Positions 1 to 63,805 of a stretch of DNA of 64,000 nt are shown one piece after another (within the stretch, counting starts at the first letter, position 1; each line of letters begins with the position of its first letter). The stretch comes from Planoprotostelium fungivorum (Eukaryota; Evosea; Variosea; Cavosteliida; Cavosteliaceae). Below the pieces are notes generated by a model. The model worked only from the letters and a program-made list of their open reading frames with translations, made no database searches and had not been told where the DNA came from. The stretch covers positions 22,901 to 86,900 of the forward strand of contig MDYQ01000118.1 of assembly GCA_003024175.1 (NCBI GenBank), read 5' to 3'. Both the position numbers and the translations under genes were made by a program.

Positions 1-3000
1 AAGCAGCGGCACTGTGATGACCATCTCGCAGGCTGGTGAGTCGCTGATGGCCGTGTGGAAGAGAGTGATGGTGTGATTGACAGTGTCCCCTCCTTGTACG
101 CCCATGTATGGGAAGGTGGATGAGATACTGGTGATCTGTGGCTCTGTGATGGTCCACGAAAGGTCTAGTAGATCGACAGCCGAGGCAGAGCCGATGACTC
201 TGGTCGTCAGACTTGCGATGACTCCTCTGACGTTGGTAACCGTGTCGTTGATGAAGAACACTGTAGTGATCTGTATCTGTCTCCCTTCAACGCTGCCTCC
301 TATCGTTGTGTTGTCTGACGACATCACAGTGCCCAGGCTGTACTTGATCACATCTGCCAGTCCGTCGTTGTTTGTATCGACCAGTGATGATGCGTTCGAG
401 CCAGTGGGCAGAAGAGAAGAGTTGACGTTGCTGCCCATAGTGATGAATGAAGAGACCACAGAGACAGGCACAGAGGAGAGGAATGCATAGGTGACGTTGA
501 GATCAGTAGAGCCGATGGGTAGAGCGATGAGAGTGTCGACAGTGATGAGCTCTCCCACACTGATCAAAGAAGATGATGCACCGTGGACATCACCAGAGAA
601 CGAGTTCGATGCAGTCGTGATCTATTGAATTGATTAGATTCGAATAAAACGTAAATGAACTCACGTTAGGTGTTATGATGTCCGAAGAAGGAGTCAGAGT
701 GGGATAAGTCCTGGCGTAGTGAACTGGTGAACTGGTGTAAATGACTGATCCAGTGTTGTCGATGACTCTGTTCATAGGGGAGTACTCGAACAGTGTGGCA
801 TTGTACGTGATTGTGATGGACGATGTGTTGGTCAATTCAGTGGCTGTGATGTACAATCCAGAGTCAGAAGGTACAGCTGAGGCTGAGCTGCCGACGATGA
901 CCAGAGATCCAGGAACTAAGATCCACTGAGGTGCTAAGGGGAAGTTGATGTGCAGACCATAAGCAGTGGCAGTAGATTCCGCTGCGTGAGACAGAACCAC
1001 AGCGAAGGCTACATTGGTATCTCCTTCACCAAAGGTGGGCGTGCTGTTCTGTACGACCACGAGCGATGGTTCCACGATAGTCCATGAAATAGTCGGCATG
1101 GTGATGGCTGATGCGGGTCCAGTGAAGGTGGTCGTGAGGTTGATCAGCACATCTTGTATGTTGGTGATGGTATCGTTCACGTAGAAGGTAGTGGTGATCT
1201 CAATCTGTCTTCCTAACAATGTTTGATTTCCTCCAATGGATGTGTTGTCAGAGGACAAGACAGTCCCCAGCTCGAAATGGATGACATCAGCTAAGCCATC
1301 ATTGTTCGTGTCCGCCAGTGACGATGCGTTTGAGCCAGTGATAAGCAGAGACGAGTTTGTGTTCGTTCCCATAGTGATAGTCGATGAGAGGATGGCCACA
1401 GGCACAGAGGGATCGAAGGCATAGGTAATGTTGAGGGCATCAGTTGATCCGATGGGCAGAGTGACAGTGGTAGTCAAGGTGATGAGCTCTCCCACGCTGA
1501 TGACTGATGATGATGGACCGTGTACATTGCCATAGAAAGTAGTCCCTCCTGTTGTTATCTGAAGATCGCGTCAGTGAAAGCCATGATGATTTCAGTCTTA
1601 CATTGGGTGTCGTGATGGTGGATGATGGAGTGAGCACTGGATAGTTTCTGGAATAGCTGTTCGGCGAACTTGTGTACGAGATGACTCCAACGTTATCGAT
1701 GACTCTGTTCATGGGAGAGTACTCGTACAGTGTGGCATTGTAACTGACTCTGATCAATGTCGATGTGTTCACAACAGCTGCTGTGATAAACAGCCCAGCA
1801 GCAGATGGTACGACTTCGGCTAAGCCACCAGTAATGACCACAGATCCAGGTACTAAGATCCACTGAGGTGACAGAGGATAGTCAATGTGTATGCCATATG
1901 CACTTGCTGTCGAACTGTTTGTGTGCGACAGCGTCACTGTAAAAGCTACTTCTGTATCCCCTTGACCAAAGGCAGGCGTGCTGTTCTGTGTGATGGCTAG
2001 TGTTGGCTCAGTGATAGTCCAGGAGAGGGTAGGCACAGTGATGGCCGACGCAGGCCCAGTGATGGTGGTTGTCAAGTTGGTAGCGACTTGTCTGATATTG
2101 GTGGCCGTATCATTGACGAAAAAGAGAGTTGTGATCTGAATCTGTCGTCCCAGTAGAGAAGTGTTACCATCAATGGATGTGTTGTCTGACGATAAGATAG
2201 TCCCCAAATTGTAATGAATCACATCAGCCGTTCCATCATTGTTCGTGTCCACCAGTGATGTTGCATTCGAGCCAGTAGCCAGATGAGAAGAGTTCGTGTT
2301 TGTGCCCATCGTGATCAAAGAGGAGACTATTGTGATCGGCACAGAAGGAAGGAAGGCATAGGTAAGATTGAGAGCATCGGTCGATCCAATGGGTAGATTG
2401 ATGAGAGTGTTCAATGTGATGAGCTCTCCAACGCTGATGAGCGAAGAAGAGGCACCTTGAACATCGCCGGAGAAGGTATTCACTGCCGTGGTGATCTGAT
2501 GATGGTGTTAGAATATATTAGAATATGAACGATTCTAATTCTCACATTTGGAGTTGTGATCATGGAAGATGGGCTCAGGACTGGGTACATTCGAGAATAA
2601 GCATTTGGTGAACTCGTATAGGAAATTGATCCAGAGTTGCTGATGACACTGTTCATGGGAGAGTATTCAAATAGTGTGGCATTGTAATTGACTGTAATGG
2701 ATGTCAAATTGCTCAGTGATGTGACCGTGATGATCAGTCCGGAAGCGGAAGGCACAACTGAGGCAGAGGTACCTACGATGACCACAGAGCCAGCGACGAG
2801 TGTCCACTGAGGAGCCAGAGGGAAGTGAATACGAATACCGTAGGCGCTCGCCGTTGATATGCCCTTGTGCGATAGGACTACAGTGAAGGCTACGTTGGTA
2901 TCTCCTTGACCAAAGGTAGGGGTACTGTTCTGTGCCACCACCAGAGATGGCTCAGTAATGGTCCATGATATGATGGGTAGAGTGATTGCAGTCGCAGGTC

Positions 3001-6000
3001 CAGCGATGCTTGTCGTCAGACTTGTACTGACTCCCCCCACGTTTGTAGCCGTATCGTTGATGAAGAACACTGTAGTGATCTGTATCTGTCTCCCTTCAAC
3101 GCTGCCTCCTATCGTTGTGTTGTCTGACGACATCACAGTGCCCAGGCTGTACTTGATCACATCTGCCAGTCCGTCGTTGTTTGTATCGACCAGTGATGAT
3201 GCGTTCGAGCCAGTGGGTAGAAGAGAACAGTTGGCATTGCTACCCAGAGTGAAGAAGGACGAGACCACAGAGACAGGTACAGAAGGAAGGAAGGCATAGG
3301 TCAAGTTGAATGCGCTAGTAGATCCAATGGGTAGGATAACAGTGGTCGTGAGAGTGACGAGTTCTCCCACATTGATCGATGTGGAAGATGCGCCATGGAC
3401 ATCACCAGAGAAAGAGGTTGATGCTGTTGTAATCTGATGATACATCAATAAGAGATAACGATTCAAATATTGTCTCACTTTTGGTGTGGTGACGTTAGAT
3501 GACAGGTCGATGATGGGATATGTCTTCGCATAGATGTCTGGCGAGCTTGTATAGCTGACCGTGCCCATGTTGCTGACTACTGTGTTCATCTCTGCGTACT
3601 CGTACAGCGTGGCGTTGTATCTCAGCGTCATCGTTGATGCTGTGGGAAGCTCATATGCCGTCAGATAGAGGCCAGTGATAGAAGGCACAACAATTGCCGA
3701 GCCGCCGGTGACCACAGCTGAGCCTGGCACGAGAGTCCAGACAGGAGAGAGGGCATAGTTGTAGTGTATGCCAAAGGCAGAGGACGTCGATGCAGCTGAG
3801 TGAGACAAGATCACAGTGAAGGCAATGTTAGCGTCACCCTGACCGAAGGCAGGTGTGTTGCTCTGTGTGGCCACAAGAGATGGTTGAACGATCGTCCAGC
3901 TCTGAGTTAAGTTGCCGATCAATCCAGTCTTACTAGTGGCCGAGACGTTGTAGCTGACTGAGCGTCCCACAGTGTTGGCCGTCACATCAGGCAGGTAGAC
4001 CAGGGTAGTGACAGTCACTCTTCTTGTGTATGTATCGCCCGCAGATGTCATCAGCTTGCCCAGTGTGATGTTCACCGTGTCATTGTACGTGTTGTTTGCT
4101 GCGCTTGAGAACATGCCAGACATGCCTTCGGTCAGAAGAGATGAGTTGATGTTGCTGCCGAAGCTGACTGTCGAGCTCATGATCTCAAACACTGCACTGC
4201 TAGCCGCGTTCTGGAAGGACAAAGAGATGTTGACTGCTGTGGCTTGACCGATGGGCATCGTGAGGTAGTGAGAGATTGTGAGCACTTCTCCGATCGACAG
4301 CACTGATGGATTGAGACCATGCGCCGTTGAGTTGTAGCCTGCAGAGAGCTGACCATCGATAGACGACACAGACAGAGTAATCGTGTTTGTGTATGATGTA
4401 GCCCAGGTATGTGGTGAGCTCAGATAGACGATATCGGCCGTGGTAGAAGACACACTCTTGTCTGCTATGTATGTGTACATCGTCGTCGTGTACTGCACTG
4501 TCACGTTGACGCCTTGCTGCAGCAGCGGTCCACTGATCAGCACAGATGTGTCGCCGCTGCTGTTGCCTTGTACCACTGTGAACCCACTGTTGCTCACTTG
4601 CATCGTGCCAGGTACTAGAACAAAGTCGGGAAGTAACGGCACTGTGATGACCATTCCATAAGCTGGTGCATTGCTGATAGCCGTGTGGAAGAAAGTGATA
4701 GTGTGATTGACTGTGTCTCCTCCTTGTACGCCCATGTATGGTGTAGTGGATGAGATGCTGGTGATTGATGGCTCTGTGATGGTCCATGAGAGAGAGGGCA
4801 GGCTAATGTTGGATGCAGTGCCAGAGAAGGTGGTCGTCAGACTTGTGATGACTCCCCTGACATTTGTCTTCGTATTGTTGACGTAGAAGAGACAAGTGAT
4901 CTGTAGCTGTCTGCCCACAAGCCCAGAATTGCCTCCAATCGCGATGGTATCAGAGGATAAGACAGTACCCAAATTGAAGTTGATGGTATCTGCTAGCCCA
5001 TCGTTGTTGCTGTCCACCAGTGAAGATGCGTTCGAATTAGTAGTCAGCCTTGACGAGTTAACGTTGCTTCCCAATGTGATGAATGATGAGGCAACAGTGA
5101 CAGGTACAGACGGAGAGAAAGCGTAGCTAACGTTAAGAGATGTCGATCCGATGGGAAGGACAACAGTGGTGGTGAGGGTGATCAGTTCACCGACGCTGAT
5201 CAGCGAGGGAGATGGTCCATGTACATCACCAACGAATGTGTTGGATGCTGTAGTGATCTGTACGAAAATGAGATATAAAGTTACGGATGATATGGCTCTC
5301 ACGTTTGGCGTGGTGATCAAAGTGGTGGAGCTGAGTGAGGGATATGCTCTTCCATAGCTGTTAGGTGAGCTGCTGTATGTGACTGATCCAGTGTTGCTGA
5401 TCACTCTGTTCATAGCAGTGTACTCGTACAGCGTGGCATTGTACGTAACTGTGATGGTAGACGAGTTGCTCAAAACACTCGCTGTGATGAACAGTCCAGT
5501 TGATGATGGTGTCACAGATGCTGAAGTGCCAGCGATGACCACAGAGTCAGGGACTAAGATCCACTGAGGTGCCAAAGGGAAGTTGATGTGTATACCACAT
5601 GCGGACGAAGTAGAAGCCGCAGCATGAGATAAGACTACAGTGAAGGCAACGTTTGTGTTTCCTTGACCAAAATTGGGTGTGCTGTTCTGCACGACGACGA
5701 GAGTTGGCTCGGTGATAGTCCATGAGAGTACAGGCAGAGTCACAGCTGTTGCAGGTCCAGTGACGACAGTCGTTAAACTGAGACTGACCCCCTTGATGTT
5801 TGTGGCTGTATCATTGACGTAGAACGCTGTAGTGATCTGTATCTGTCTACCCACAAGGCTGCCTCCTATGGATGTGACGTCGGATGACAAGACAGTTCCC
5901 AAGTTGTAGTTGATGACGTCCGAGGCTCCGTCATTGTTGGTGTCAACCAGTGATGATGCACTTGAGCCAGATGCGAGCAGAGAAGAATTGACGTTGCTTC

Positions 6001-9000
6001 CCATAGTTACAGTGGATGATACCACAGTCACAGGCACAGATGGCAGGAATCCATAACTGACGTTAATGGTGGTAGTTCCGATGGGAAGGATAATCGTGGT
6101 CGTGAGAGTAACGAGTTCTCCTATGTTGATGGCAGTGGAAGATACACCGTGGACATCGCTAGAGAAGTTGTTATATGCCATAGTGATCTGTGATACATGT
6201 GAATATTCCCCATTCAAAATCAAATCAAACTCACATTGGGCGTAGTCACAGACGAAGTACAGCCGAGAACAGGATAGTTTCTTCCATAGCTGTTAGGCGT
6301 ACTTGTGTACTGTATCGTGCCACTGTTGCTGATCACTCTGTTCATGGGAGAGTACTCGTACAGTGTGGCATTGTATGTGAGTGTAATTGATGAAGAGTTT
6401 GACAGTCCTGTACCCGTGATCAACAGTGCAGAAGCTGAGGGTATGACAGAGGCTGAGCTGCCAGTGATGTTCACAGATCCTGTTACTAAGATCCACTGAG
6501 GTGACAGAGGGAAGTTGATACGGATGCCGTAAGCAGTGGCAGTTGATGTGCTCTTATGTGCCAGTATCACTGAAAAAACTACGTTCGTTGTGCCTTGAGC
6601 AGTGGTGGGGGTATTACTCTGTGTGACTACGAGAGATGGCTCCGTGATCGTCCACGAAAGTGCAGGCAAGCTGATGGCCAATGCGGGCCCAGTAAATGTG
6701 GTTGTCAATCTTGCAGCAGAACCTCCAGTGTTGGTCTGGGTGTCGTTGATGTAGAAGAGAACGGTAATCTGAATCCGTCTACCGGAGAGACCAGAGCTTC
6801 CTCCTATCGTTGTGACATCTGATGACATCAATGTTCCAAAGTTGAAGTTGATGACGTCAGCCAGTCCGTCGCTGTTCAAATCGACCAGTGATGATGCGTT
6901 CGATCCGGTGACCAAGAGCGTTGAATTGGTGTTAGTTCCCATCGTGACTGTGGATGAGACCAAAGCGACGGGTACAGAAGGGAGGAAGGCGTAGGTCAAG
7001 TTGAGTCCAGTGGTTGAACCAATGGGTAGAGTGATGAGAGTGCTCAATGTTATCAATTCTCCCACACTGATGATCGAAGAGGATGTACCGTGTACATCAC
7101 CAGAGAAGGTGGTCACTGCTGTTGTGATCTGTTGTTATCATCAATATCTAAAACATTTGCATTCCTTTCTCTCACATTTGGTGTCGTGATGGTGGAAGTG
7201 GGAGCCAAAGCTGGATAAGTGCGAGAATAGCTGTTCGGTGCACTGGAATATAAGACTGTTCCACTATTGCTGAAGACCTTATTCATCGAAGAGTACTCAT
7301 ATAACGTAGCATTGTACGTGACCGTAATGGAAGCCAAATTGCCCAAACTACTGGCCGTGATGAACAGACTCGATGGAGAAGGTGCGATTACGGCTGCGCC
7401 ACCAGTGATGACCACAGATCCAGGTACCAAAGTCCACTGAGGTGCCAGAGGAAAGTTGATACGTATACCATAAGCTGTGGCTGTCGACGTGCCTCTGTGT
7501 GATAAATTCACAGTGAAGGCGACGTTGGTGTCTCCTTGACCGAACGTAGGTGTGCTGCTCTGCACTACTGTGAGGACTGGCTCCGTAATGGTCCAAGAGA
7601 TGACGGGCATAGTAATTGCAGTCGCATGTCCAGTGATACTTGTCGTCAGACTTGTACTGATACCCTTCACATTCGTTCCCGTATCGTTGATGAAGAAGAG
7701 CGTCGTGATCTGAATCTGTCTGCCCACAAGGCTGCCTCCTATCGTTGTGACATCGGATGATAAGACAGTACCCAGGTTGTAATTGATGATATCAGCTGCT
7801 CCATCGTTGTTCGTGTCGACCAGTGATGATGCATTTGATCCAGAAGAGAGCAGAGATGAGTTGACATTGCTACCGATGGAAATGGCTGATGATACAACAG
7901 TGACGGGGACAGATGGGAGGAAAGAATAGGCTACATTGAGAGCACCGGTCGATCCGATAGGAAGGACAATGGTAGTGGTGAGAGTGATGAGCTCTCCTAC
8001 ATTGATGGATGTGGAAGATGCACCATGGACATCACCAGAGAAAGTATTCGATGCTGTTGTGATCTGATGCAATTAGATACAGAGATAATATGATGTGTCT
8101 CACGTTGGGTGTGATGATGTTGGAGGATGGAGTCAATGTAGGATAGGTTCTGAAATAGCTGGTAGGTGAACTCGTGTATGTGATCGTTCCACCGTTGCTG
8201 ATGACTTTGTTCATTGTGGAATATTCGTACAGTATGGCATTGTACGTGATTGTGATCGAGGACGTGTTGGTCAGCTCAGAGACAGTGATGTACAGTCCAG
8301 AGACAGTTGGTATCACAGAGGCTGAGTTGCCAGAGATGACTGCTGATCCAGGAACTAACGTCCACTGAGGTGAGAGAGGAAAGCTGATCTGCAGGCCATA
8401 AGCAGAAGCCGTAGAGGTGGCAGCGTGCGACAAGATCATTGTGAAGGCAACGATACTATCTCCTTGTCCTGTGATGGGTGTGTTGCTCTGTGTTACTGCG
8501 AGAGATGGCTCTACGATAGTCCAGCTCTGTGACAGTGTACCGATGGTGCCGGTAGAACTCTTGGCAATGGCACTGTATGTGATGATGTTCTTCTTGACAT
8601 TATATGCCACGTCGGGGAGGTAGACTGATGTTGTGACTGTGATTCTCCTTGTGGATGCATCTCCTATGGAAGCCATGAGCTTGCCGAGAGGGAAGGTGAT
8701 GGTGTCATAGATGCCATTGTTGGCCGCACTGAACAATGTAGCCGAGTCACCCTCGATGAGAAGTGATGAGTTGATGTTGCTGCCGAAGCTGACTGTCGAG
8801 CTCATGATCTGGAACACTGCACTGCCTGCTACATTCTGGAAGGACAAAGAGATGTTGACTGCTGTGGCTTGACCGATGGGCATCGTGAGGTAGTGAGAGA
8901 TTGTGAGCACTTCTCCGATCGACAGCATTGATGGATTGACACCGTGTACAGTCGAATTGTAGCTGGCAGACAGCTGACCGTCCAGTGATGTAGCAGATAA

Positions 9001-12000
9001 CATCATGGTGTTGACGTAATTCCTTGCCAAAGCGGTGGGTGCACTGAGGTAGAAGATGTTGGCTGTGGTAGAAGACACACTCTTGTCTGCTATGTATGTG
9101 TACATCGTCGTCGTGTACTGCACTGTCACGTTGACGCCTTGCTGCAGCAGCGGTCCACTGATCAGCACAGATGTGTCGCCGCTGCTGTTGCCTTGTACCA
9201 CTGTGAACCCACTGTTGCTCACTTGCATCGTGCCAGGTACCAGAGTGAAGCTGGGAAGCAGTGGGATAGTGATATTGAGTTCATAAGCTGGCGAATTGCT
9301 GATGGCCGAGTGATAGAGAGTGATAGTGTGATTGACAGTGTCTCCTCCTTGCACACCGGTGGAAGGTGTTGTGGCCACTACCATTCCGATGTCTGGCTCC
9401 ACGATGGGCCACACTGACGTGACCATATTCAGTGCAATGCTATCACTGTAGATGGTAGTCGTCAAGCTGAATGTCTTTCCTCTGACGTTGGTCGGTATGT
9501 TGGGCAACACCGAAATGATCTGAAGGGCGATGCGCCTATCAGTGGTGTTCCACAGTGAAAAACTTCCAGCAGAGATGACAGTCATGTTGGAAGTCAATAC
9601 GGTCCCCAGGAACAATCTCGAGAGATCAGAGAATCCATCTGCATTGGTGTCGACGAGATCTCCCATCGTCCCGGACGTCGCGTTGGTCGAATTGACGTAT
9701 GGACCGAGCTCGATGGTCTGATTCAACAGCTGAGAGAGTTCAGATGGTGGAGATAGAGTGAGACGGTGTCACCTGCACGGTGGCTGATCCAGTGAAGGAC
9801 GTGACGATAACGAAATTGTTCATGGTACCGATGGGATTGATGATGACCGTGTAACTCATCAAATTCTCACCCACGGTAAGAGAAGTGGGAGCAGATCCTT
9901 TGATGGTGCCCGTGTAGTTGGCTGAAGCGACTGGTATGAGGGTCTGTAGGGTAGAAGCTCCCGTTGTGGTGTATGGGCGTGAGGGCAGGCCGGGAACACT
10001 GGTGTAGTACAGGTTCGCCGTTGTCGTCACGGAGGAGCTCAGCGTGATGTATTGATACAGCTGAGCCGTAAGATTGATCTGCGGCACAATGAGCTTTCTG
10101 TGGGTTCAAATGGGAGGAACTCACTTGTACGATGGTGTTGAGAGGTAATTGGGAGAGGTTGATAAGAGGTACAGAATCTCCGTTGCTATTTCCCGTGACG
10201 ATCGTGGCTCCGCTGTAATTGGTCGAAACTGAACCAGTGACCAGAGAGTAACCAGACAGTGTCGTATTGATGAAAAGGTTAAAAGCGTCCGCGTTCGATG
10301 TTGCGGTGTGTCCCACATAGAAGATGAACTGGATGATGTCCGTTCCTTGTCCAGAACTGGGTGTGTTGCTAGAAGTGATGTAGAGGGTAGGCTCTATGAT
10401 AGTCCACGTGTTGATAGCGTATCTGGGTGTGCCTCCCACTGACTGGTACATCGTCGAATTCAGCCATGGTACTGTTCCTCTCCTAACGAAATTATCAAAC
10501 ATCATCAATCTCGAATATATAGACAGATATCTCACTTGTTCAATGCTTGAGGTGTAACTCTACCCGAAAATGTCAGAGAGAAAGTGCCACCACCGTTATT
10601 GATCCCTGTGTTGTACGAGTACACGTCTCCCATAGAGAACACAGCAACATCATTGTACCCATATGCGTTCAGCTGTGACAGACTGGCTGCTGACCCCACT
10701 GCCATACTCGAGTTCAAGCTGCTGGCCATGCTTGTCATGTTTGTGCTGACGATCTGCATGATGGCAGTGGTAGAGCTGAAGAAAGAAAAGCTGAGAGCGA
10801 GAGAAGGCACTCGACTGCTGGGCACAGTGACAGTCACCGTGACGTTGATGACATCACCAATACGTACAAGACTACCTCCGAGAGGTGTAGCCGTAGTGAT
10901 CGTGAAGGTGGGGGTGTTGATGGTCACAGTGGTACCTATCTGCGCTTTATAATTTCTCCACACCTGACACCTTGATCAATTTAATTGTTCGAATCGTAAG
11001 TCTTACCGAAACACCATTGATGGATGTACTGTTCCAGCTAAGATATCCAGTCAAGATGTAAGTAGCTCCGGATGTCAAAAAGGACGACAGATTGGCCGCA
11101 AAGTTGATCGTGAAGCCACTCGGTCCGACAGATGAGATCGCTGCCACTCCTCTGTCTCCTTGTGTGTTGCCCTGTGTCACTGTTCCCACCACATTCGTCA
11201 GTGTGACACTGGATGATGCGCCCACAAAGATGCTGTTGAAAGGCGAGCTGAATGAGATGTCGAAAGGTGCAGAGGAAGATGCAGAGGCCAGAGGGTAGGC
11301 AAATCTGAACGACACGGCATCGCCTGACGACAAGACTGCAGATGCGTTCGTCGTCACAGATGTCGTCAACAATGGCTCTCTCACTGTCATTGTGCTGAAG
11401 CTCACTATTGCTTTTCAGCTGTCGACTCTGCATCATCAGCTCACCTGCAACAGCAGAGGCAGTGGACAGACAAGCGACAGAGAAGGTGGGCAGGATGGTA
11501 GTGCCCGCGTTAGTCGTCGTCAGATTGGACACAACCGTCTGAAGTGTGAAGGTCACAGTGGAGGTGGTTGAGCTAGACACAACATTATTCAGATTCCAAG
11601 ATGCACTCGTGCTTGTCGTTGTGTTGGCTGAAAGACCTAGAACTTCGATGGGAGTGACCGAGTTGATCGCAGACACCTATATCCACAACATCAGACGTTT
11701 AATCTTATCTTTCAACTCACCGTGGAAGACAGTATAGAAATAGTGGCAGGGATAGTGAATGTGGCAATGAGATTACTGCACGTGCCAGGAGGTATCGTCA
11801 CCGTGGACGTAGCATTGACGATGGTTCCTATGGTGACGCTGGGAAGAGTTACCGTACCGGTGAGACTGCTGGCTAAGCTGCTGACGCCACTGGGTGGAGC
11901 ACTGATGAAGTTGATACTGCTCGTAGTCGACTGTGGGTTGTTCGTTAGGTGAGATAATGATGAGCATCATACCTTGACTTTACCATTGGTGGGTGCTGAT

Positions 12001-16870: not shown

Positions 16871-17168
16871 CGAGGCTGATGCTGTGAGGAACAAAATGTT
16901 GGCGATCTCCGGCAAGATGCCCTTATAAACGTACATTAAGGGGCTTATTCAAGAATAGGCCGTTCCATTCACGGAACTGGCTTGTGATCGGCACTTCATA
17001 TGAATCATCTAGCACTCCTGCCATGCGGAGGTCACAAATAGTAAGAGTACATTACGTGACGAGCTCCCTATAACTCGCAATAATCGCGAAACACGCATAT
17101 GATTCAGAGGAGAAGGGAACCATTTTCAGAAAAGGTGTGTATTCTCAAATTAGAACTCAGGACAGCTT
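16871..17168. other. Intergenic stretch upstream of the left giant gene
   Basis: About 300 bp lie between the stop codon of the small secreted gene and the start of the left giant gene, both on the minus strand. It holds a TATA-like element (16921-16930) and a short imperfect palindrome near 16960-16980. I see no further gene in it. Confidence 0.6.
16921..16930 (-). promoter_or_regulatory. TATA-like element of the left giant gene
   Basis: The minus strand reads GTTTATAAGG about 52-60 nt upstream of the ATG at 16870. The small secreted gene has a similar element at a similar distance from its ATG. The right paralogue shows no equally clear TATA at that distance. This is a motif match only. 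Confidence 0.35.
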
Positions 17169-17778
17169 TTAAAAGGCTCCAGAGCCGATGCCCTTGTAAC
17201 CGTTGATAGCATCGATGCGGTTCTCCTTGCCACCGATAAAGTTGCCTATCACGTTCAAATCTCTCAACAGAGAAAAGTCGTCGGTGGCGGCTGCGTATCC
17301 ACCTGTCAGACCGGTCAGCGCTCAAAACTAAACACCAGCTCACCAAAGGGGCTGCTAGCAGCCTTTCTGTGAGGAGTCACGAGCTGGTAGACGGCATCAA
17401 TGAGAGAGAAATCGGTGACATCGTCTCCGTAGCCTCCAAAGAGCTCATCGAAGTTCCTCTTCCGTCCGAAACCTTGAGCGTGGTGTCAGGTCATCTTCTT
17501 TTCTCAAACTCACCGGAGAAGTCTCCGCCAAAGCCGTTGATAGCATCGATTCGATTCTTTTTTCCTCCGATGAAGTTGCCGATGATGTTGATGTCGGAGA
17601 GGAGACCGCGATCGTCAGCGTCATTCTCTCCTCCCTTGAGAACACTGGCGATGGTGAGAAGGCGTGACACTTGATCCGACTGGTAGCTGGCCGCTCCTCC
17701 GGGTCCGGCAGCTTTAAAGCTTTGAGCGGAGACGAGGCAGAGAGCGGCTAGGCCGACGGTGACGAGTAAGAGTTTCAT
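17169..17778 (-). CDS. Small secreted protein with duplicated 'IGNFIGGK-NRIDAING' motif
   Basis: Three exons (17514-17778, 17344-17472, 17169-17302) join in phase to give 175 residues ending in TAA. Residues 1-18 form a clear signal peptide (MKLLLVTVGLAALCLVSA before QSF) and there is no later membrane segment, so the product should be secreted or vacuolar. The first exon contains LLSDINIIGNFIGGKKNR followed by IDAINGFGGDFSG. The third contains LLRDLNVIGNFIGGKENR followed by IDAINGYKGIGSG, so a module of about 30 residues is duplicated. The middle exon encodes a linker with FDELFGGYGDD. I do not recognise the family and propose no function. The introns are 41-42 nt. The gene lies between SZT2 and the left giant gene on the same strand, 231 bp downstream of the SZT2 stop. 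Confidence 0.82.
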
Positions 17779-17827
17779 AGTAGAGTCTGTAGGTACAGGT
17801 GTTGGTTGTTGTGCGTGTGGTGGAATG

Positions 17828-17834
17828 AATATAG
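17828..17834 (-). promoter_or_regulatory. TATA-like element of the small secreted gene
   Basis: The minus strand reads CTATATT about 50 nt upstream of the ATG at 17778, within the 231-bp gap to SZT2. The spacing is like that of the TATA-like element before the left giant gene. Motif match only. Confidence 0.3.
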
Positions 17835-18009
17835 GTTGGGGGACATCATCTCAGACTCCATCTGGAGGAAGATGTGTCTGTATTGAGATTTCGATGCGAA
17901 ACCACCTTCTTCCACACGTGTCAGACTGAAAACCGAATTCTCTATCCTTTTCGTGGACGCATGGAACGCTGCTTGATATCCAGCGATTAAAATGGCGAGA
18001 GTTCGAGTT

Positions 18010-54200: not shown

Positions 54201-57200
54201 CTGCTGGCTACTGGCTCAAACGCAACATCACTGGTAGACACGAACAACGATGGATCAGCTGATGTGGTCCACTTTGAGCTGGGCACTATCATGTCGTCCG
54301 ACAACACATCCATTGGAGGAAATTCAAGTCTATTGGGAAGACAGATCGAGATCACAACCGTATTCTACATCAACGATACGGTCACAAACACGAAGGACAT
54401 GGAAACGAACATCACAACCACCTTCTCTGGACGTGCTTCCATCATCACCGTCCCCACACTCTCCTGGACTATCACTGAGCCTTCTCTCACCTTCACTGTG
54501 GAATCCAACACATCTAACGGTCAAGGAGGAGATGTCATTCAGTTCACCTCTGTCATCTCTCACTTGCCTCAATCTACCGCCGATGCCATGGAAACAAGAC
54601 TGGAAGTGCCTCTCCTTCCCGGCTTCGTTGCTGTGCCAGGCTCGATCATCTGTGACTCTCCCCTCTACACCGTACTATCTGGAGAAGTAGTGGGAGACCA
54701 GTCGATCAGCATTCTCATACCAAGATTGGTCCTGTCTACCAACACTACCATCACATTCGATGCCAAGTTGTACGACTTTGTCCCATACAACAGCACCATC
54801 TACAATCCGATGACGCTGCACTACCAGACCGCCCCCACATCTCCTGCTAGGAATTTCCAGGAAGATATCACGATTGGTATCACCACTCCATTGGTCTCTT
54901 ACACCACCACCTTCACAACAGATATCCCCAGCAGCAGCAACAACTTGACCATAGGACAAGTCATCACTCTCCTTCACGTCATCGATCTGCCCTTTGGCTC
55001 TACTTCCTCTCTCTTTCTCTCTACTCTCTTGTCAGGCACAGGTGCCTTGCAAGTCATCAACGCCAGTGTCAGCATCGGCTCACACAGCAACTCGACTGGA
55101 CTGAGAGACAAGAGCTTGCTGGACGTGATCGACATCGATGGCGATGGGCTGGCAGACGAGATACAAGGAGCGTTTGACCGAGTGATGTCAGCGCCTGGCT
55201 ACATCATCGGCAATGGAACGAAGCAAGATGGAAAGATGATCGTTGAGCTCAATCTGTACGCACCTGATGTGGAGAGGAACTACATAGGACAGACTGTCAG
55301 CCTCACAACGACCTTGACCGAAGATGACGGTATTGTTTCGACGTACGACCACACTTGGACACTTCAAGAGCCCGATCTAATCTTCTCCTCCACCATCGAC
55401 AGAGAGAACGGACAAGGTGGTGATGTCTTCAACGTCAGCTTCCAGATCGAGCCTTCCCTGTTGGCCACATCAACACCATTCCACGTATCCATCATCGGTG
55501 ATTCCCTACCAAACTGGAACGTCACATCGATTGATGCCGGGTCTTACGTGGAAAAGAACACGAGCGTCAACACGCTCGACTTATCGTTCGACCACCTGCC
55601 AGATAGTACGGCTCAGCTCACGTACACGACACAACTGTGGGACTTTATACCGATGAACACCACTATCTACCACCCCTTGGCCCTTGCTTATTTCAGTGCA
55701 CCGAATCTACAGTATGCCAGAAGGTACACTGTACCGGATTCCATCTTGAGCGTCAACACACCTTCTCCCGTGGCCAGCTCACAGATCATCTCCAACATCC
55801 ACACGAACACGTCCTCTCTGTTATCTGTCGGTGAACGCGTGACGTTGATCGTCTATCTGCAGCTGCCATATGGAAGTACATCAGAGTTGAAGGTCAACAT
55901 CTCTCTCAGCACCTTTGGCGCTCACTTTGGCGTGGACACTACTCGCTTGTACATGGGCAACCACTTGTACTCTCACAGTCTTGCCACTGGCAGCAACGCT
56001 TCTGTCACGCCCACGACTGGACCCACTACCACCATCGTCTATGACTTTGACGGCATACAGTCGTCACCGAGAGACAACATGAGCAACAGCACAACATCTG
56101 CAGTGGGAGAGAACGAGGCCAGAGTGGAGATAGCACTGTATGTGGATGACAGCAGCAGTTCCATCGCTATGTCACACGTGGATGTAGACGTCGCCTTCTC
56201 TTTTGCCCACGGAATATTCTTCGAAGAGAGCTACGGATTCGATATTGTAGAGCCCACTCTGATCGTGGACTGCACAGTGAGTCACATGTCTTTGTCTATG
56301 AATTGAATCTGATATCATCTCAGTCTTCTCGTTCTTTTGGCCAAGGAGGAGATGTCATTTACTACCGTGCCAATATCTCCCATGCTGCACTCAGCACTGC
56401 CGCTGCATTTGACCTCGATCTAGTCTACCAGGTGGAAAGTTATCTCAACGTCAGCCTCACCTCTCTCTACACTACTTCCGGTAAGATCACGCTGGATTCA
56501 CACGGTGCTGTAGTGGTAGCCATACCAACCATTCCACTCAACGAGTCGATCATCATCGAATTCTCTGCCATCATAAGAGGCGACGTCGAATTTTCGAAGC
56601 AGTACACTTCATTTGGTGAGTCATCGAATCACTCTCTCTTGCTGATCGAGACAGCTCAACTGTCATACACTAGCTCTCCTGCAATAGAATCGGTTGAGAC
56701 GAGGGTGTACACAGTGGAGGGACCGGAGATATCGCTTGAGATCGTCGACGTGATATCCAGCTTCTCTTATGAATCATTGAATGTGCTGAGAACTTCGGAT
56801 GTACTCGTCACACCCAACCAGCTCGTTGATTTCATCGTCCAACTACAAGTGAGTTACTGTCACCTCTCTTCTACTTCGTGTTCTTTCCTCATTCTATCAT
56901 GACTAACGACTGCACAGTTACCTTATGGCATCACGAACAACTTGACTGTCACCTTATCACTTCCTGCCAACCAGATGACATTCCAGTCTGTTCACTCTTC
57001 TTTCCATGGTGACCTGTCATTCGGTCAGTTGCCACAGAATGGTACGCTGCCCATGGTCACAGCAGACGCTCACAACATGTCTACTGCCATCATCTCCTTC
57101 GGCAAGGTACGGCTTGTCTCATACATGCCTTCATTGATCGTGTGTAGGTGACAAGCGTTGGTGTGAACAACACGATGGACGTGAGAGTGACCTTCTTGCT

Positions 57201-60200
57201 CTCTGACAACGACTACAACGTCTACGATGCATCTCTGCCTCTCTCTTCCATAGTCGACTGGAACGTCAAGAACACAAGCTACAACTATGTCATGACCGTA
57301 GTCACACCCCTCTTGGACTTCTCTTTCACCTCATCACAGTCTGTTGTGACTGAGGGCGACGTCATAGAGATGCAGCTGGTCGTGTCTCATCGTCTGGCCA
57401 ACACAGTGGCTGCTTACAACATCACGCTGTGGGACAACGTAACAGATCCTTACTTGCATCTAGTCCGTGGCTCGACCTCTGCCAGCTGGGGCAGCTTTGT
57501 AGAGGCCACAGACGGATCAGTGGGCTTCAACTTACCGGTCTTACTGCCCGAACAATCGGCGACATTCATTTACAAGATAAGAGTGTCGAATGACATTGGT
57601 TTCCGCTATCCACACAGCGACATGTACATGCGGTGGCAGACTTCTCCCACTCCTTCTTCAAGGTGAATCACATGATCATTCAATTCTCCTCTCACTACTG
57701 ATCAGGATGCTTCGTTATTCGAAAGGAATAACATTCACTCCGTCTCATCCGAAGATGACATCGATTATTTTGCAAGATGTTATGATGCCATCGTTATCTT
57801 TTGATATCTCTCCTTTGGGCATCACTTATCCCAACTCAAGAGAACCTCTGATGAATCTCACATCGACAAACACATCCCATGTCATGACAGGTCTGAGAGT
57901 GGGAGAGACACTGTCCACTATGCTGCTCATCTCTTTCCCTTACGGTCTGCATCGAGTCAACATCTCAGACAACTCACTCGTCTCTTCTGTCTCACGCGGT
58001 AACATGACTGTGGACACAACAGCCAGACTGACAGTGACAAGTGAGAAGCTGATGAGATGTGTGTGATCTGATGATGTACAGATGTGACAGTTGTCCGTGT
58101 GGGAAGACATCTGAGCGGAAGTGGACTGAGCGAAGGACAAGATCTCACCTCTCTTGTCTCTTCTGATGGTAGCCTCAATCTTCTGCTGGATACCATCAAC
58201 AGCACTGCCTACGGTTCCACCACCATGGATGACTGTCTTCAACTATACGTGGCTTGCACTCTGCAAGACCTGCCTCAGAACATCCCCGGCAAGCTACTGT
58301 ACCACTCGTCAGAGCTGTCATGGAGTCACGGAAGCACACCTCAAGTCTTCCCTTTCACTCTCTCTGTCCATCAAGCCTCACTCGTCTCTGCCTCTAGCTT
58401 TCCCAGCAACATTGCTATACAAGCGGGTCAGACGGTGAACGGTAGTGTCTCTCTGTCACACGAGAGCTCTACTGCAGAGGCTCACAACATCTCTACGACC
58501 ATTCGCTTCGAACGAATGACACTACACCTAGATAATCTCAGAATCACCGTCATCTCGGGTAGCTCAGACAACGTCACATCTGACGCCTTCTCGATCGACA
58601 ACGTCACATCAGTCATCACATCTGGTCAACTCGTCATCACTGCCCCTCTCTTCCCCATCGGCGCTGAGATACACATCGACATGATGTTAGTCACGGATGC
58701 TACCGTTGTACCTGGACAGAAGATCGACGTGACAGTGGACAACTCATGGCAGTCCATTCCATCATCCTTTGGTGTGCCTCGCACATCCACATCATCCTAC
58801 AAGTTCCTCACAGTCACTGTGCCATCACCTGTGGCCACTTCCACAGGCTCGCTGAACAGTCTGACAGTGGGAACATCAGCGGACGTCAACGTTACGATAG
58901 TAGCAGTGAGAGGAACGTACACAAACACAAAATTCCATGTGTACTTCCCCTTGGACAGTCAGGGCAATCCATTAGTCAAGGTATGAATGTTTATAAGTTG
59001 ACGATCGTCAACTGAATCGTTTCAGTGTGAATCAGCTCGGGTGATTGGTTCATCATCCGATGTCAACTTCTCTGATAACTTCGATTCCTTACATCCTCTA
59101 GCGGTGAACCATCAATTTAATCTTGTTTGTTGTACGAAACTGAGACAAATAGATGATGGACGTCAGCAACAGACAGATCGGCATCTCATTCAACATCAGT
59201 GGCCTACGAGTCTCACCCTCTCAGACTCGTCCAAATTCCACCGAACGGATCACCTTCACTTTGCGATATCGACTGTTGGATCTACCTTCAGTCGTTCCTC
59301 TGCTGGTGGCATCTTTCGCTTACGATCTGTCTCTTCCGTTCAGTGTCGTCAGAGGCACGAAGAATATCACGGTGAGTCTATCTCATCGTATGGAATGGAT
59401 GTGAGGTGACATCATCAGATCATTCAGTCATCCCTGAGCATTCGATCGGTCTTCAGTGTGCTCAACACCACGTACAACAATCGATTGACGATGAACATCA
59501 CCGTATCTCATTCTCTCGCATCCACAGCAACCGCCGAAAGTCTGAAGCTGATGTTATCTCTTGGCCGTGTGAGTCAATGATGATTCTAAATGAATTTCGT
59601 CTGAAGAAAATAGTTGTCCGTGATCTCGGGTTCAGAAGTAAACGGAGGAGGGAATAGTACAGAGCTGAACTCGACTCTCATCTCCTTCTCTCTCAACAGT
59701 CTGCCCGTCGGTCAAAACTGGACACTCAGCCTGCAGCTGTTGGCAGGAATTTCTTTTGGAGACTATCGAGTTATTCAATCATTGAGCTTCGCAACATCAT
59801 CCAGCAACTACTCTCGTGTCATCCGTGATTCGAACACAGTGAGACGATTCCAATTTCAGCCTTTTTTGACGCATCCAGGCTTATGTGCCGGACTCAACTG
59901 TGCATTTGGTTCCTCCTTCTTCTGTCGCCTCTACCAGTGCAGAGACATTAGCTATTGCACCGGGGGATATAGTCATCTTCCAGGCTACATTTGTCATCCC
60001 TGCTCACGTCAACCGCTTTAACCTGTCTGGATCCATCATCAGCATCGGTGGTGGAGTGATATTGAAAGGTGAGGACAGAAATGAGATCTTAACTGATGGA
60101 GATAGAATTGTCGTCCATCACTCTGCCTGACGGCACGATGATATTGTCTAACTCACCCGATCTACCAATGGTCACCATGGAAGATTCGAATCTACAAAAC

Positions 60201-63200
60201 TCCAGCTCAGTGAAGCGTCAGTGGAACATGAAATTCGATCATCTGGCAGATCTATCTCAAAGTTCAAATTTGGTCGTCAAGTTTTCGGTACAGCCACTCT
60301 CTTGGGCGACTCCTTCGGTGAGATCGTTCATTCACATCCTTTTTACTCACATCACATAGAGTTTCCTCAACCAGAGTTTGACATTATCTTGGTTTAATAT
60401 CAGTACGAATGTATCTCGTCTCTCCAGATTAGATCTTCCACCCTGTTGGATCACGACGCCTTCCATGTCTCTGAGCATAAGCTTCCGCACACCTCATCCA
60501 AAGGTAATTTGGATCTTCCGTATGCTCGATTGAACAAATGGTAAAGAGAAACAGGTTAATCCGGGTGATCTTATCACTCTCGATCTGAACGTGAACCATA
60601 AGAGTTCTAGTTTAGTCAATGCTTTCGGTGTACAGGTGAGTCATGAGAATTTCCTTCCACATCTGACTAAATGAAATAGATTCTCACCCTCTTGCCCTCA
60701 GAGTTCACTCCCACAGTCGACATTGGAAATCGCTCAAACGCCTTGACTTACAACGCTTCGTCGCTATCACTCGGTAGAATGATCAACCTGACTTATTCTT
60801 CCATTTTGATCAACAACATGGCCAAGGAGGGACAGGTATAGAATCATGCGCGGTACCGTCCATGACGTCTCTCAGGTTATTCAAATCAGCAGTACTTTCA
60901 GTTGGGCGTCTGGCATCACACCAGAAGCGGTGAAGAATTCGACTGGAAATGTCTATTCCATCACGGTCAACTGCAAGCCCAGACCGGAGAATCTAACTTT
61001 ATTCGTTAACGAAGGAAGCAATCAGACGGTCAATCTGCACGAACACATCACTGACCGAGATGGATATCAGGTGATCTTGATGAATAGCATCGATATCATG
61101 CTGATGCTTTCTCAGGATATCGATTGGAAGACTCTGTCTCTCACCTCGAGCACTCTATCAGGCAGTGTGAATCTGACCAATGGATCTGTTTACTACCAAC
61201 CGAAACAATACTTCTGGGGTAACGATAGTGTCAGCTACAAGATCTGCGATAGCACAGGCGCATGCAAGGAGGCAAACATCACATACGTCGTCGCTTACAG
61301 ACCTCACGCACCCTTTGCATCGAATCAGACCCTCATCACTCCTCAGAACGGTGAGAAGAGATGTGAAAGAGAGAGAAGCTGAAGGAGGCAGGTGTCTCTG
61401 TGAATATCAGCTCGAGACTGTTCTGTCCTGACTCGCCTCTGTCCTTCGTACGAGTCGACTCAGTCACCTCGGGATCGTTCGCAATGAATACATCACGATC
61501 TTATCCAGCATCGAGTCCAGTGAGTCTCAGATGACATTGTCTACCATCTGATGCATTACATAGTATCTGCTTGACGCTATGTACACACCGCCCCCGTTCA
61601 AGTCTGGGTCGTTCATCGTCATCTTGACAGCATGTAACGAGCAGTCGATGTGCTCGCCGCTGCAGTTCAACTTTACTGTCGTGGCACCTACACCACCCAA
61701 ATGGTTGAATGCGACGAAATACGACAACTCTACCAATCAAGAGGTCTATCAGATCATATACGTCAACAACACCCAGAATGTTGGAACATCATCAGACGAG
61801 GCTTACGACCTCTACGTCGCTCTTAACATCATCGATATTGATCGAGATAGTGCCAAGATTAGCGTGAGTCGACCGAATAATATCCCTCTCATGTTATTGA
61901 TCAACATCTACATAGACATGCTAAAATTGACACTACATAGAAAAAACCAAGCCACGGCACTGCCAGTATCGATGATGTGTACGCGAACGATGCCAACGAA
62001 ACCGTCATTGTCATTCGTTACGTCCCTACTTCCAATCAAGCTACGAACGACACCTTGAGCTATTCTGCCTGTGACATGTGGTCTCAGTGTGCAGAGTCTA
62101 CCGTCCATGTCTCCTTCCCTGCAGCTGCCCAGCCTGGTTACTGCTATGGCGGTATCATTCTCACTCTCTTCGGTTTGTTTCTCGGTTTCACTGGCTTCAC
62201 CTTCTACTCAGCATCACGAGCTTGGCATCTCATCGATTTCATGCAGCTGATGGTGAGTGCAGATGTCATATCGTGGCAGCGTAGGGTAACATGTTCGCAG
62301 GTACTGTCATCGCAGGTCAATGTCAACTATCCCACCTTCTACATGAACTTCATTGGCTGCTTCTCTTGGCTCAACCTCTCTGCTTCTGTACCCTGGCAGG
62401 TGATACATGACACGCATTCACTTGTTCGGACCACTCACAGTTGAGACAGATCTCTACAGCACTGAAACAGTTCATCTTCACCTTTGAGTCAGAGGAGAGA
62501 CGTGCAGGTCACAGAACCTTACAGTCTGTCGATCAGTTCATCAGTCAGGCCGTGGCCGACGTGCCGGGAGAGAGATACCTCACAGGCACACTCTTCTGGA
62601 CTGTCGTCATCTGCCTCATCCCTGCCTTCCTCTCTCTCTTCTTCTATCTCATGCAGAAGCTCTCAGTCACATACGGACCTGCGTGTGAGAAGCTGAAGAG
62701 GATCTGTCAGACCATCACGTGGAGGATCTGTCTCTTCGCTTATCTAGGCGTGGTCTTTGCTTGCCTGCATCAGCTCGTCGTGCAAGCTAAAGTGGGAACA
62801 GGTGGATCAGCCTCTATGTCCATTGCCACCATGTTTGCATCCGTGATACTTCTCATCGTGACGCCCGGACTCCCCATCATCTACATCTTGGCCGTTCGCT
62901 CCAGATGGAACAAGATTCATCAACCCATCCACTCAGCTCAGCCGACAGCGAGTGAGAAGATATACATCGAACGAAGCAGAAGCTGAAGAGATACAGAAGA
63001 TGGAGACTGGAAGTTAGTTTTCCGACCGGATTCGATTGGTGTAGAAGTAACAGCAGAACAACGAGCTCAGGAGGTCAGCCAACCAGCACCCATTCCCAAC
63101 GAAGACGACAGGTGAGGATGACTTTGTATAACGAATTTCATCTGATGTTCGAAAAGATACACCTATGACACGAGAGTGTTGGGATGTACTGCCGGCTTGT

Positions 63201-63805
63201 ACAAACCCTGGGAAGCAAAGGACACCCTCATCCACAGATACTTCTACCTCATCGTCTTTGCAAAGAAGTTCCTTTTCGCTCTGGTCATAGCCCTCTTCTC
63301 CCCCGGCTCGTCACACGCTTCCACCTACGTGCAGATCATCGCCCTACTCATCATCCTCGTGGCTTACATCGCCATCATCCTGTGGCAGAGACCTTACGCA
63401 GACCGATTCTCTATGGTCATCGACTTGCTCTTCTCGGCGGTCATCTCATTGATCCTCATCTTCTCCGCTCTCATGGTGGACGAGAGCACGCTCAGTAGTA
63501 GAGACCGCACCCGTCTGTGTGTGGCCATGATCTGGATTCATTATGGTACCATGGTCTTCTTCTACATCATCTGCCTTCCGACTTTCCTCAAATCGATGGT
63601 GGAGCATCTCAAGCAGAAGGAGAAGAGAGAGGCAGAACAAGAATCACAGATTGCGCTGGACAACTCTGAAATGAACGAAGCGGATGACGAGGGGCTGAGC
63701 GCCAGTTCCAGAGACCCAAGGAGTAGTATCTACACGCCAAACATGATGTTGGAGGTCATCACACCACCCGCATCACCAACAACGCAGAGAGCTTTAGCTA
63801 GTTAG
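32210..63805 (+). CDS. Giant DUF11-repeat surface protein with TRP-like membrane domain, right paralogue
   Basis: Hand-built model of 59 exons and 9,643 codons; codon phases close at all 58 junctions and the stop is TAG at 63803-63805. Order: signal peptide (32210-32273); unique N-terminal ectodomain (exons 2-22, to 39278); composite exon 23 (39323-40948); tandem repeat exons 24-35 (40991-53943); diverged DUF11-like units (exons 36-50, 53991-60835); cadherin-like segment (60876-61863); membrane domain and short Ser/Glu-rich tail (61941-63805). The membrane part resembles the fungal TRP-like/FLC family, so the product is predicted to sit in the plasma membrane with almost 9,000 residues outside. 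One codon is anomalous: an in-frame TAA at 33358-33360 (codon 293) where the left paralogue has GCG. If real and not read through, the product would stop at 292 residues. All later exons remain open, which argues against an old pseudogene. Function unknown; adhesion, sensing or recognition are inferences. Confidence 0.87.
33358..33360 (+). other. In-frame TAA codon inside exon 6 of the right giant gene
   Basis: Exon 6 reads ...VNVLHSF, TAA, ADDLPAYNATLL...; the left paralogue at 15615-15825 reads ...YSIVHSF, GCG (Ala), AANYPAYTATLV.... The flanking codons align without gaps. A 28-nt intron that would remove the TAA breaks the frame, so it does not rescue the gene. Confidence 0.8.
39323..40948 (+). 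other. Exon 23 (composite repeat), right paralogue
   Basis: 1,626 nt, the same length as left exon 23 (8104-9729). It encodes DTNADGRFD in its first part, then the VQGGDTVNH / GFTVVQGNSSGDTSVL / YTYIADKSVSST type unit, then NPSVLSIGEVLTISHYL and PIGQATGVNVSLS. It ends with a GQGDANVAF half-unit. Large parts recur almost word for word in exons 28 and 35. Confidence 0.85.
40991..53943 (+). repeat. Tandem repeat-encoding exons 24-35 of the right giant gene
   Basis: Twelve exons, one unit each: 40991-41884, 41927-42820, 42864-43757, 43807-44691, 44733-46508 (composite double), 46554-47441, 47489-48382, 48430-49320, 49364-50254, 50297-51187, 51234-52127, 52171-53943 (composite double). Single units are 885-894 nt and the introns between them are 41-49 nt. 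Every unit starts with I-T after the acceptor, contains GDVHG near residue 12-15, and nearly all carry a DTNNDG-type loop and GRQ[IL]QIT or GRQIEIT. The second half is a GQGDT / LVPGS / YNATL DUF11-like domain. All borders are phase 0. By order and text, exons 31-33 are extra copies of an exon-30-like unit and one of exons 24/25 is also extra relative to the left gene. Confidence 0.9.
53991..60835 (+). other. Exons 36-50: diverged DUF11-like ectodomain units, right paralogue
   Basis: Exon 36 (53991-56276, 2,286 nt) begins with a standard unit (FTGDVHG, DTNNDGSAD) and then runs into diverged ones with NGQGGDV starts and a DIDGDGLADE loop. Exons 37-50 (56324-56848, 56918-57106, 57148-57662, 57706-58040, 58082-58980, 59026-59103, 59153-59371, 59419-59568, 59614-59838, 59879-60068, 60106-60317, 60360-60503, 60555-60635, 60680-60835) encode shorter, more diverged beta-rich segments. 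These have mixed intron phases, so they lack the clean exon-unit match of the array. This looks like an older part of the protein. Confidence 0.75.
60876..61863 (+). other. Exons 51-54: membrane-proximal cadherin-like segment, right paralogue
   Basis: Exons 60876-61070, 61116-61350, 61392-61519 and 61564-61863. The text LTLFVNEGSNQTVNLHEHI, then DRDG, SLTSSTLSGSVNL, YFWGNDSVSYKICDSTG and ANITYVVAYRPHAP has the pattern of cadherin-like/'tandem-95' repeats. These show a hydrophobic strand, G-x-V, a P-x-x-x-F-x-G-x-D-S-x-x-Y core and a C-x-x-x-G-x-C turn. A second, weaker copy follows (FIVILTACNEQSMCSPLQF). Such repeats are found in extracellular proteins of bacteria and protists. Confidence 0.65.
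61941..63805 (+). other. Exons 55-59: TRP-like (FLC/PKD2-type) multi-pass membrane domain and tail
   Basis: Exons 61941-62252, 62301-62399, 62441-62951, 62991-63111, 63157-63805. After a last extracellular stretch ending in PGYCYGG, eight or nine hydrophobic helices follow. Examples are IILTLFGLFLGFTGFTFYS, LFWTVVICLIPAFLSLFFYL, ICLFAYLGVVFACLHQLVV, FASVILLIVTPGLPIIYIL, YLIVFAKKFLFALVIALFS, VQIIALLIILVAYIAIIL, MVIDLLFSAVISLILIFSAL and HYGTMVFFYIICL. The run LYKPWEAKD, then FAKKFLFAL, then IILWQRPYADRFS mirrors the 'Y-K-P ... lRK ... lRPY-x-d-r' pattern of fungal TRP-like/flavin-carrier proteins. The tail (about 70 residues) is charged and Ser-rich. Channel activity is inferred from the family, not shown. 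Confidence 0.68.

Follow-up and report, generated by a model that had tools for sequence, protein, structure and literature searches.

Paired giant genes of Planoprotostelium fungivorum combine a predicted stalk of alternating Ig-like domains, one type remotely related to DUF11, with a TRP-like membrane base

What purpose could be served by a pair of giant genes that point away from each other and that each join a long stalk of repeated domains to a multi-pass membrane domain? The question is raised by a 64,000-nucleotide stretch of the genome of Planoprotostelium fungivorum (contig MDYQ01000118.1, here C55, positions 22901-86900; GenBank assembly GCA_003024175.1, 36.86 Mb in 471 contigs), which we call the window and by which positions are counted unless a contig is named. 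One gene occupies 32210-63805 on the plus strand; the other starts at 16870 on the minus strand, has its head and most of its array inside the window (1-16870), and continues leftward to C55:12206. Our answer, to which we give a probability of about one half, is that they most likely encode giant surface proteins, each a calcium-stiffened tether on a transient receptor potential-like (TRP-like) base.

The divergent pair recognized by a first-pass annotation of this DNA is real. Its members are inverted repeats that align in five pieces at 70 to 94% DNA identity, and 43 introns match in position and phase (53 were modelled in the plus gene and 48 in the minus gene). Modelled with the left end of the contig included, the minus gene encodes 8,171 amino acids in 49 exons and ends near C55:12206 in the same multi-pass domain, the search for its stop having been confined to about C55:11500-12500 and guided by a match to PF06011, the Pfam TRP family. 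Both genes are therefore fused to the TRP-like base, and the annotation was mistaken in describing just one of them as visibly fused, since the other ends beyond the window. At C55:12150-12793 the last part of the minus cytoplasmic tail lies in a different frame from its plus counterpart, and the two tails end differently. A whole-genome search with PF06011, followed by gene modelling, revealed a second divergent pair on contig C462, consisting of a long minus gene (8,460 amino acids, 54 exons, in a stretch holding one N base) and a plus gene devoid of the array (C462:98888-104487; modelled as 1,431 amino acids in 15 exons). The long copies have 43 to 44 intron positions and phases in common.

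Because the ratio of nonsynonymous to synonymous substitution rates (dN/dS; Nei-Gojobori, per segment, with array alignments that may pair non-corresponding units) lies between 0.12 and 0.30 by segment among the three long copies, a 62-codon tail excepted, the giant pair is not chance and its coding sequence is constrained end to end. Between the plus and minus genes of the window the values are 0.23 for the head, 0.22 for the array, 0.23 for the post-array region, 0.18 for the membrane-adjacent part and 0.21 for the membrane part, with 0.63 for the tail; between the minus genes of the two contigs they are 0.12, 0.27, 0.23 and 0.14 for the first four segments and 0.30 for membrane part and tail together. 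The plus gene compared with the C462 minus gene gives 0.20-0.30, and its membrane region compared with the three other copies gives 0.21-0.25. Within C462, the membrane ends of the two genes give 0.15; beyond that end the alignment was poor, with identity of 24-41% in two segments, and was not used.

The extent of the plus gene rests on splice-aware dynamic programming, for which the long open frames of the window itself served as training set, with the start codons at 16870 (minus) and 32210 (plus) supplied to the model. The stop at 63805 scored best in a first run, which gave 9,335 amino acids, and in all four runs under varied settings (9,221-9,488 amino acids), the gene end being unrestricted throughout; the four runs were also trained on 36 introns selected from the first model, and their splice scores accordingly lean on it. 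Across settings the gene comprises 51 to 57 GT-AG exons and about 9,200 to 9,500 amino acids. A complete gene of 9,643 codons, as first proposed, thus survives as one giant gene ending at 63805 but not at that length. In a later model of 9,485 amino acids and 54 exons, for which only stops close to the contig end were allowed, the 53 introns have a median length of 45 nucleotides and 38 are in phase 0. Small exons differ between settings in the N-terminus and the membrane region, and the smallest are uncertain; a small second exon (from 32332) is conserved in four copies, yet the later model skips it. At 50228-50311, inside the exon 49364-51187 and between two array units, lies a probable 42-nucleotide intron that is free of stops and unspliced in the plus model, its retention keeping the frame open.

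The plus protein is laid out as signal peptide, head, two-domain array, post-array region, Big_9, TRP-like membrane domain and short cytoplasmic tail. Its first exon (32210-32273), aligned in all four copies, encodes a signal-peptide-like N-terminus (MHLLGLLLSCVLVATVQA) with a hydrophobic segment at residues 3-21. The head (32332-38110) comprises about 1,600 amino acids of diverged immunoglobulin-like (Ig-like) domains. Its exon 35799-36503 by itself matches DUF7933 (PF25564), another predicted isopeptide family, weakly (E 5.4e-4; 20.3 bits against a cut-off of 26.5), and the homologous exon in three copies scores 24.9, 25.4 and 26.9 bits, one of the three above the cut-off. The array (38149-56255) alternates domains of two types, A and B, in units that typically measure 298 amino acids and fill one 894-nucleotide exon; counting head and post-array region, the whole protein has 23 A and 25 B domains. 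Structure prediction of one unit had been suggested by the first-pass annotation: for a representative unit at 51234-52127 (type A at 51249-51725, type B at 51729-52100), AlphaFold2 gave two Ig-like beta-sandwiches with a mean predicted local distance difference test score (pLDDT) of 89.3 and a predicted template modelling score of 0.81. The post-array region (56259-60835; dN/dS 0.23-0.28) holds A/B-like domains that are degenerate and interrupted by small introns, and its spliced sequence had no Pfam match at E≤1. The membrane-adjacent exon (60876-61350) is Big_9 or cadherin-like, of the tandem-95 kind, matching Pfam Big_9 at 6.1e-11 and Cadherin_5 at 2.1e-7, and NCBIfam NF012211 at 4.5e-9, under the cut-off of that model. 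Eleven further Big_9 matches lie on contigs C107, C459, C99, C7 and C21 in open frames of 331-1,850 amino acids, which perhaps belong to other giant surface proteins.

Type B is a remote relative of DUF11 (CLIPPER), a relation that holds at the level of profile-profile comparison and fold only. Against an alignment of 528 DUF11 domains, taken from open frames at 79 loci of prokaryotes (the best among the matches listed), type B gave a probability (Prob) of 95.6 and an E value of 1.3e-8 over 82 columns; its score was 43.9, where 25 column shuffles reached at most 12.7 and the reversed profile 15.7. Subsets of type B gave Prob 88.1 (array rows only) and 96.2 (head and tail rows). The predicted fold matches a solved CLIPPER domain (PDB 9IFR) and has the CnaA-like Ig sandwich. 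The Pfam DUF11 model (PF01345) had no match anywhere in the genome at E≤0.001, DUF11 was not among the weak Pfam matches of 26 array units at E≤5, and a hidden Markov model of the 528 domains run directly on the four proteins reached a best E of only 6.7e-4. Type A gave Prob 2.5 against DUF11 and 0.7 against type B and is for that reason not called DUF11; the Ig-like sandwich predicted for it is all that it would have in common with that family. The DUF11 label given to the whole array at first is thus apt for type B, though at a distance that the Pfam model does not bridge, and does not extend to type A.

What might stiffen such a stalk differs between the two domain types. Between five residues before the domain start and the end of an 18-residue stretch, a position proxy applied to the plus gene, a lysine occurs in 1 of 25 B domains, so that the isopeptide lysine of DUF11 seems to have been lost; it is not universal on the first strand of DUF11 domains (PMC12617251). 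In type A, a strict calcium-loop motif of the DxNxDGxxD type, D-x-(D/N)-x-D-G-x-x-D, is found in 13 of the 23 plus domains and in 11 of the 19 that each other long gene has, compared with a mean of 0.005 in 200 shufflings of the plus A domains and with none in the B domains of the three long genes (0/25, 0/21 and 0/21). The motif suggests that type A domains bind calcium. The plus protein also contains 252 N-glycosylation sequons.

The base (61941-63805) comprises eight hydrophobic segments followed by the cytoplasmic tail, and by profile it is a member of PF06011 with a putative channel role. The plus membrane piece matches Pfam TRP at 1.3e-9 and 37.8 bits against a cut-off of 28.5, the four genes score 37.8-46.3 bits, and a second C-terminal piece scores 44.6. 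With this family above cut-off in four genes and Big_9 adjoining it, the original description of the membrane part as TRP-like is well founded. Genome-wide, PF06011 matched at seven places, five of them above the cut-off, and four of these five are the ends of the two divergent pairs. Elsewhere, a PF06011 base scoring 30.6 bits, above the cut-off, occurs with leucine-rich repeats at C460:23939-26962, and C443:29804-32930 encodes a multi-pass protein with EGF-like and TRP-like matches that are both below cut-off (the modelled protein has no PF06011 match at E≤0.1, and the genomic exon scores 25.3 bits). The proteins on C460 and C443 suggest that this genome may habitually pair the base with ectodomains of different kinds. 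A further gene, on C387, was modelled only as a single piece of 118 amino acids.

Taken together, a signal peptide, an Ig-like head, a stalk of dozens of alternating A and B domains, Big_9 and a multi-pass base would make a protein that holds its head far from the cell. Domains of this kind are spaced by about 4 nm, and if some 60 are assumed, the stalk would form an extended extracellular tether with a length of, very roughly, at least 0.2 micrometre, stiffened by calcium in its type A domains and by N-glycans. Kept at a distance by such a tether, the head could serve in adhesion, in the capture of prey or in contact between cells; less surely, a pull on it might open or modulate the TRP-like base and let calcium enter. 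We take the Pkd2 and FLC proteins to belong to PF06011. A review reports that calcium passes through Pkd2 of fission yeast under membrane stretch in vesicles, and lists Pkd2 and the yeast FLC proteins as one mechanosensitive family (PMC12028594). The base to which the stalk is joined comes from a family with a fission yeast member reported to be gated by force.

A bolder form of the tether proposal, which we put forward tentatively and think rather doubtful, is that a stalk of the bacterial-adhesin type became the ectodomain of a TRP-like channel, with calcium loops and glycans in place of isopeptide locks, and that pulling gates the base directly. If so, this would be a force sensor with an evolutionary origin separate from that of polycystins and of tip links. 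It would also be a genuine array of the CLIPPER superfamily in a eukaryote, a kind of organism in which the published isopeptide-domain hits have been taken for false positives. The combination of a prokaryote-type repeat stalk with a TRP-like base, which the first-pass annotation had put forward, is modelled within one gene, and an array-less paralogue still reads in frame from head to base, but the prokaryotic likeness is confined, as DUF11, to type B.

Several observations weigh against the tether. It is known from genes, gene models and predictions in a single genome. The spliced head has no recognized adhesive domain in Pfam, and at E≤1 no Pfam match at all, DUF7933 included. The integrin matches of the array unit, taken up below, extend across both domains with a root mean square deviation of about 12 Å and therefore show similar sandwiches rather than the same arrangement. 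The hydropathy threshold that flags the eight membrane segments also flags many strands of the plus stalk outside the membrane part, so that the count of eight relies on the membrane region itself and on the array-less copy, in which only the signal peptide and these eight are flagged. Structure prediction for 61941-63805, another check suggested at first, covered the last membrane exon alone (7 sequences); it gave four helices at a pLDDT of just 57.7, and no fold search was made from it. A sequence search of the PDB with the membrane piece found no relative, returning three weak matches to CD3 epsilon (E 1.4), and by eye the modelled membrane sequence contains no evident pore-loop segment.

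The last two points also favor the best of the other explanations, that the genes encode a pure surface stalk whose TRP-like base merely holds it or takes part in flavin or lipid functions, as has been suggested for the FLC proteins of fungi, with no force-gated conduction. Eight hydrophobic segments without an evident pore loop and without a solved relative would suit an anchor, and for yeast Flc1 a role in regulating both calcium homeostasis and the transport of flavin has been described (PMC9600462). Against it, the membrane dN/dS of 0.21-0.25 is about as low as that of the stalk, a constraint that may be tighter than anchoring alone calls for, and Pkd2 of fission yeast is reported to be stretch-activated (PMC12028594). 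We consider a pure anchor possible, though on balance unlikely.

A second alternative leaves the function of the tether aside and concerns its ancestry: the stalk domains may not be of bacterial descent but may represent an independent eukaryotic Ig lineage resembling the integrin leg. The top Foldseek matches of the array unit are indeed integrin alpha legs (E 2.4e-11), type A lacks profile similarity to DUF11, and no relative was confirmed among 48 pattern matches in prokaryotic genomes. Viral contigs gave 25 pattern matches to the array unit and 11 to the membrane exon, none of them a relative; plasmids searched with a typed DUF11 consensus gave no match; a PDB sequence search with the unit profile gave none among 177,635 entries at E≤10; and NCBIfam on the unit gave TIGR04226 at E 0.08 only, far under cut-off. 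Matches to FG-GAP, the repeat of the seven-bladed propeller that heads integrin alpha, were weak (FG-GAP_3 at E 0.095 and FG-GAP at E 0.7 in six raw open reading frames, and FG-GAP at E 0.17 in 1 of 26 units), as were other Pfam matches of the six frames, such as the Cna-B-like pilin PF16569 at E 0.076. A PaaX match in these frames (E 2.5e-4 in one of them) was below cut-off and was set aside as chance. Two short relics of array units, on opposite strands and one with in-frame stops, lie at C170:18536-18850. What tells against a purely eukaryotic lineage is the type B score against DUF11, far above its shuffled and reversed controls, and the presence in the same protein of Big_9, a domain known mostly from prokaryotes. 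We regard this alternative as doubtful, more so than a pure anchor.

Among the nearest systems are fibrillar adhesins with DUF11/CLIPPER stalks (PF01345; PDB 9IFR; PMC12617251), which the stalk would resemble in its working without being a Pfam DUF11 member. Those of bacteria and archaea end in an OmpA-like anchor or a sorting motif, whereas here a eukaryotic gene with dozens of modelled introns, and with that early lysine in a single B domain, ends in a TRP-like multi-pass base. The same study regarded the isopeptide-domain hits that it found in eukaryotes as probably false, with contamination as a possible cause (PMC12617251); the genes described here differ in having introns, eukaryotic neighbor genes and signs of selection, but they lack the lysine. 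They would constitute large, intron-bearing and constrained arrays of remote DUF11/CLIPPER relatives in a eukaryote, unrecognized in that survey as far as its consulted part goes, and its isopeptide-based tool would probably miss arrays of this kind (PMC12617251).

A third proposal has the divergent genes serve as a recognition pair, for self/non-self or partner recognition, with array length and head diverging while the arms convert each other. The arrangement is found twice, and the A and B domain counts vary among copies (23+25 in the plus gene, 19+21 in each of the other two long genes, none in the array-less copy). Some segments look homogenized within a locus: in the array, synonymous divergence (dS) is 0.28 between the two genes on C55 but 0.63 between the minus genes of the two contigs, and at the membrane end it is 0.20 between the two genes on C462 (715 codons) but 0.62 between the minus genes (466 codons). 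However, the head dN/dS is low (0.12-0.23) and gives no sign of diversifying selection, the array distances come from one genome and from alignments in which units may not correspond, and we think recognition of this kind improbable.

The relation of the two loci is itself consistent with either segmental duplication or two unmerged haplotypes. C55 and C462 have a 30-kb collinear stretch at 95.0% identity, within which spacer positions 20500-23500 are identical to C462:87206-90206 over 3 kb at 100%; recent exchange, unmerged haplotypes and a young duplication are candidates for this island. A piece of the left flank of C55, lying about 6 kb from its gene, recurs at 98% identity on C462, where about 40 kb separate it from the gene. 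C462 also carries, beyond the other gene, an inverted copy of about 1.6 kb of its right flank (98% identity). Two 3-kb control pieces from elsewhere both lacked a second near-identical copy, so the assembly is not simply doubled; the other matches were short or partial at 67-84% for one piece, and for the second piece an 82% tandem neighbor over 2.1 kb and weaker ones.

Of the genomic hints that a single gene encodes both head and membrane part, the array-less copy on C462 is the best. It begins with the signal peptide and an initial portion of the head, for which 615 codons align with the plus gene, and passes from there to Big_9 and the membrane part; its C-terminal 815 amino acids match Big_9 at 4.2e-13, TRP at 1.1e-11 (positions 149-420 of the 426 in the profile) and Cadherin_5 at 2.6e-6. 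The sequences on either side of the junction correspond, at about 95% identity, to places far apart in the plus gene and do not overlap, which argues, at the level of the assembled sequence, against a collapsed repeat in the assembly. On the head side the breakpoint falls in a plus intron and on the membrane side inside a modelled plus exon, for which reason an intron-to-intron deletion was dropped as the origin of this copy. The frame is preserved if a 150-nucleotide stretch that includes the exon remnant is spliced out, whereas retaining the longer, 58-nucleotide remnant shifts it; the in-frame join of head to base is thus open and modelled rather than proven. That the array and the membrane exons are separate transcripts joined by gene modelling is very unlikely, for although their join is known from gene models, the longest plus intron (237 nucleotides in the 9,485-amino-acid model) falls between them, the array-less frame depends on splicing out the longer remnant of a plus exon and an accidental phase fit there has a chance of one in three, this copy can be read in frame and without a stop from its signal peptide through to the membrane exons and the long copies agree in those 43 to 44 introns. 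With a natural array-less copy beside full-length ones, what the stalk does could be tested directly within a single organism.

Among eukaryotic proteins, the genes resemble fungal TRP-like/FLC/Pkd2 proteins in a PF06011 match above cut-off and several hydrophobic segments. Fungal FLC proteins carry a small lipid-binding-like N-terminal domain, where these have a giant Ig-like ectodomain; no Pfam match to an FLC-like N-terminal domain was found in the 815-amino-acid array-less piece or in the plus head and post-array region. The parallel with polycystin-1, whose multi-pass base belongs to the wider TRP field, holds for layout, a very long Ig-like ectodomain on such a base, and goes no further, there being no match to PKD_channel, PLAT, REJ or GPS in the six open reading frames, the C-terminal pieces, single exons, 26 units, head and post-array region (the scans took the array in pieces, and about 190 amino acids around 38570-39240 were in none). 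The nearest eukaryotic precedent known to us for a giant protein of bacterial-adhesin-type repeats is colossin A of Dictyostelium, built of Cna_B domains (PMC3188802); it differs from the present proteins, which have a TRP-like base and no Cna_B match in the open reading frames, units, head, post-array and C-terminal pieces scanned. Dictyostelium Sib proteins and integrins are comparable in the adhesion role proposed here, and the unit fold resembles the integrin alpha leg; SibA is single-pass, has a VWA domain and binds talin (PMC9197732), while the base here is multi-pass and the pieces scanned had no VWA match. A literature search returned no description of a DUF11-type stalk fused to a transient receptor potential-like base, which is not proof of absence.

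Within the window, no Rfam family matched at gathering scores and no tRNA was found. The spacer between the giant genes (16871-32209) holds unrelated genes, a WD40-like piece among them. At 28513-28962 lies an ordinary gene for a protein with an RNA recognition motif, which we take to resemble splicing factor SF3B6.

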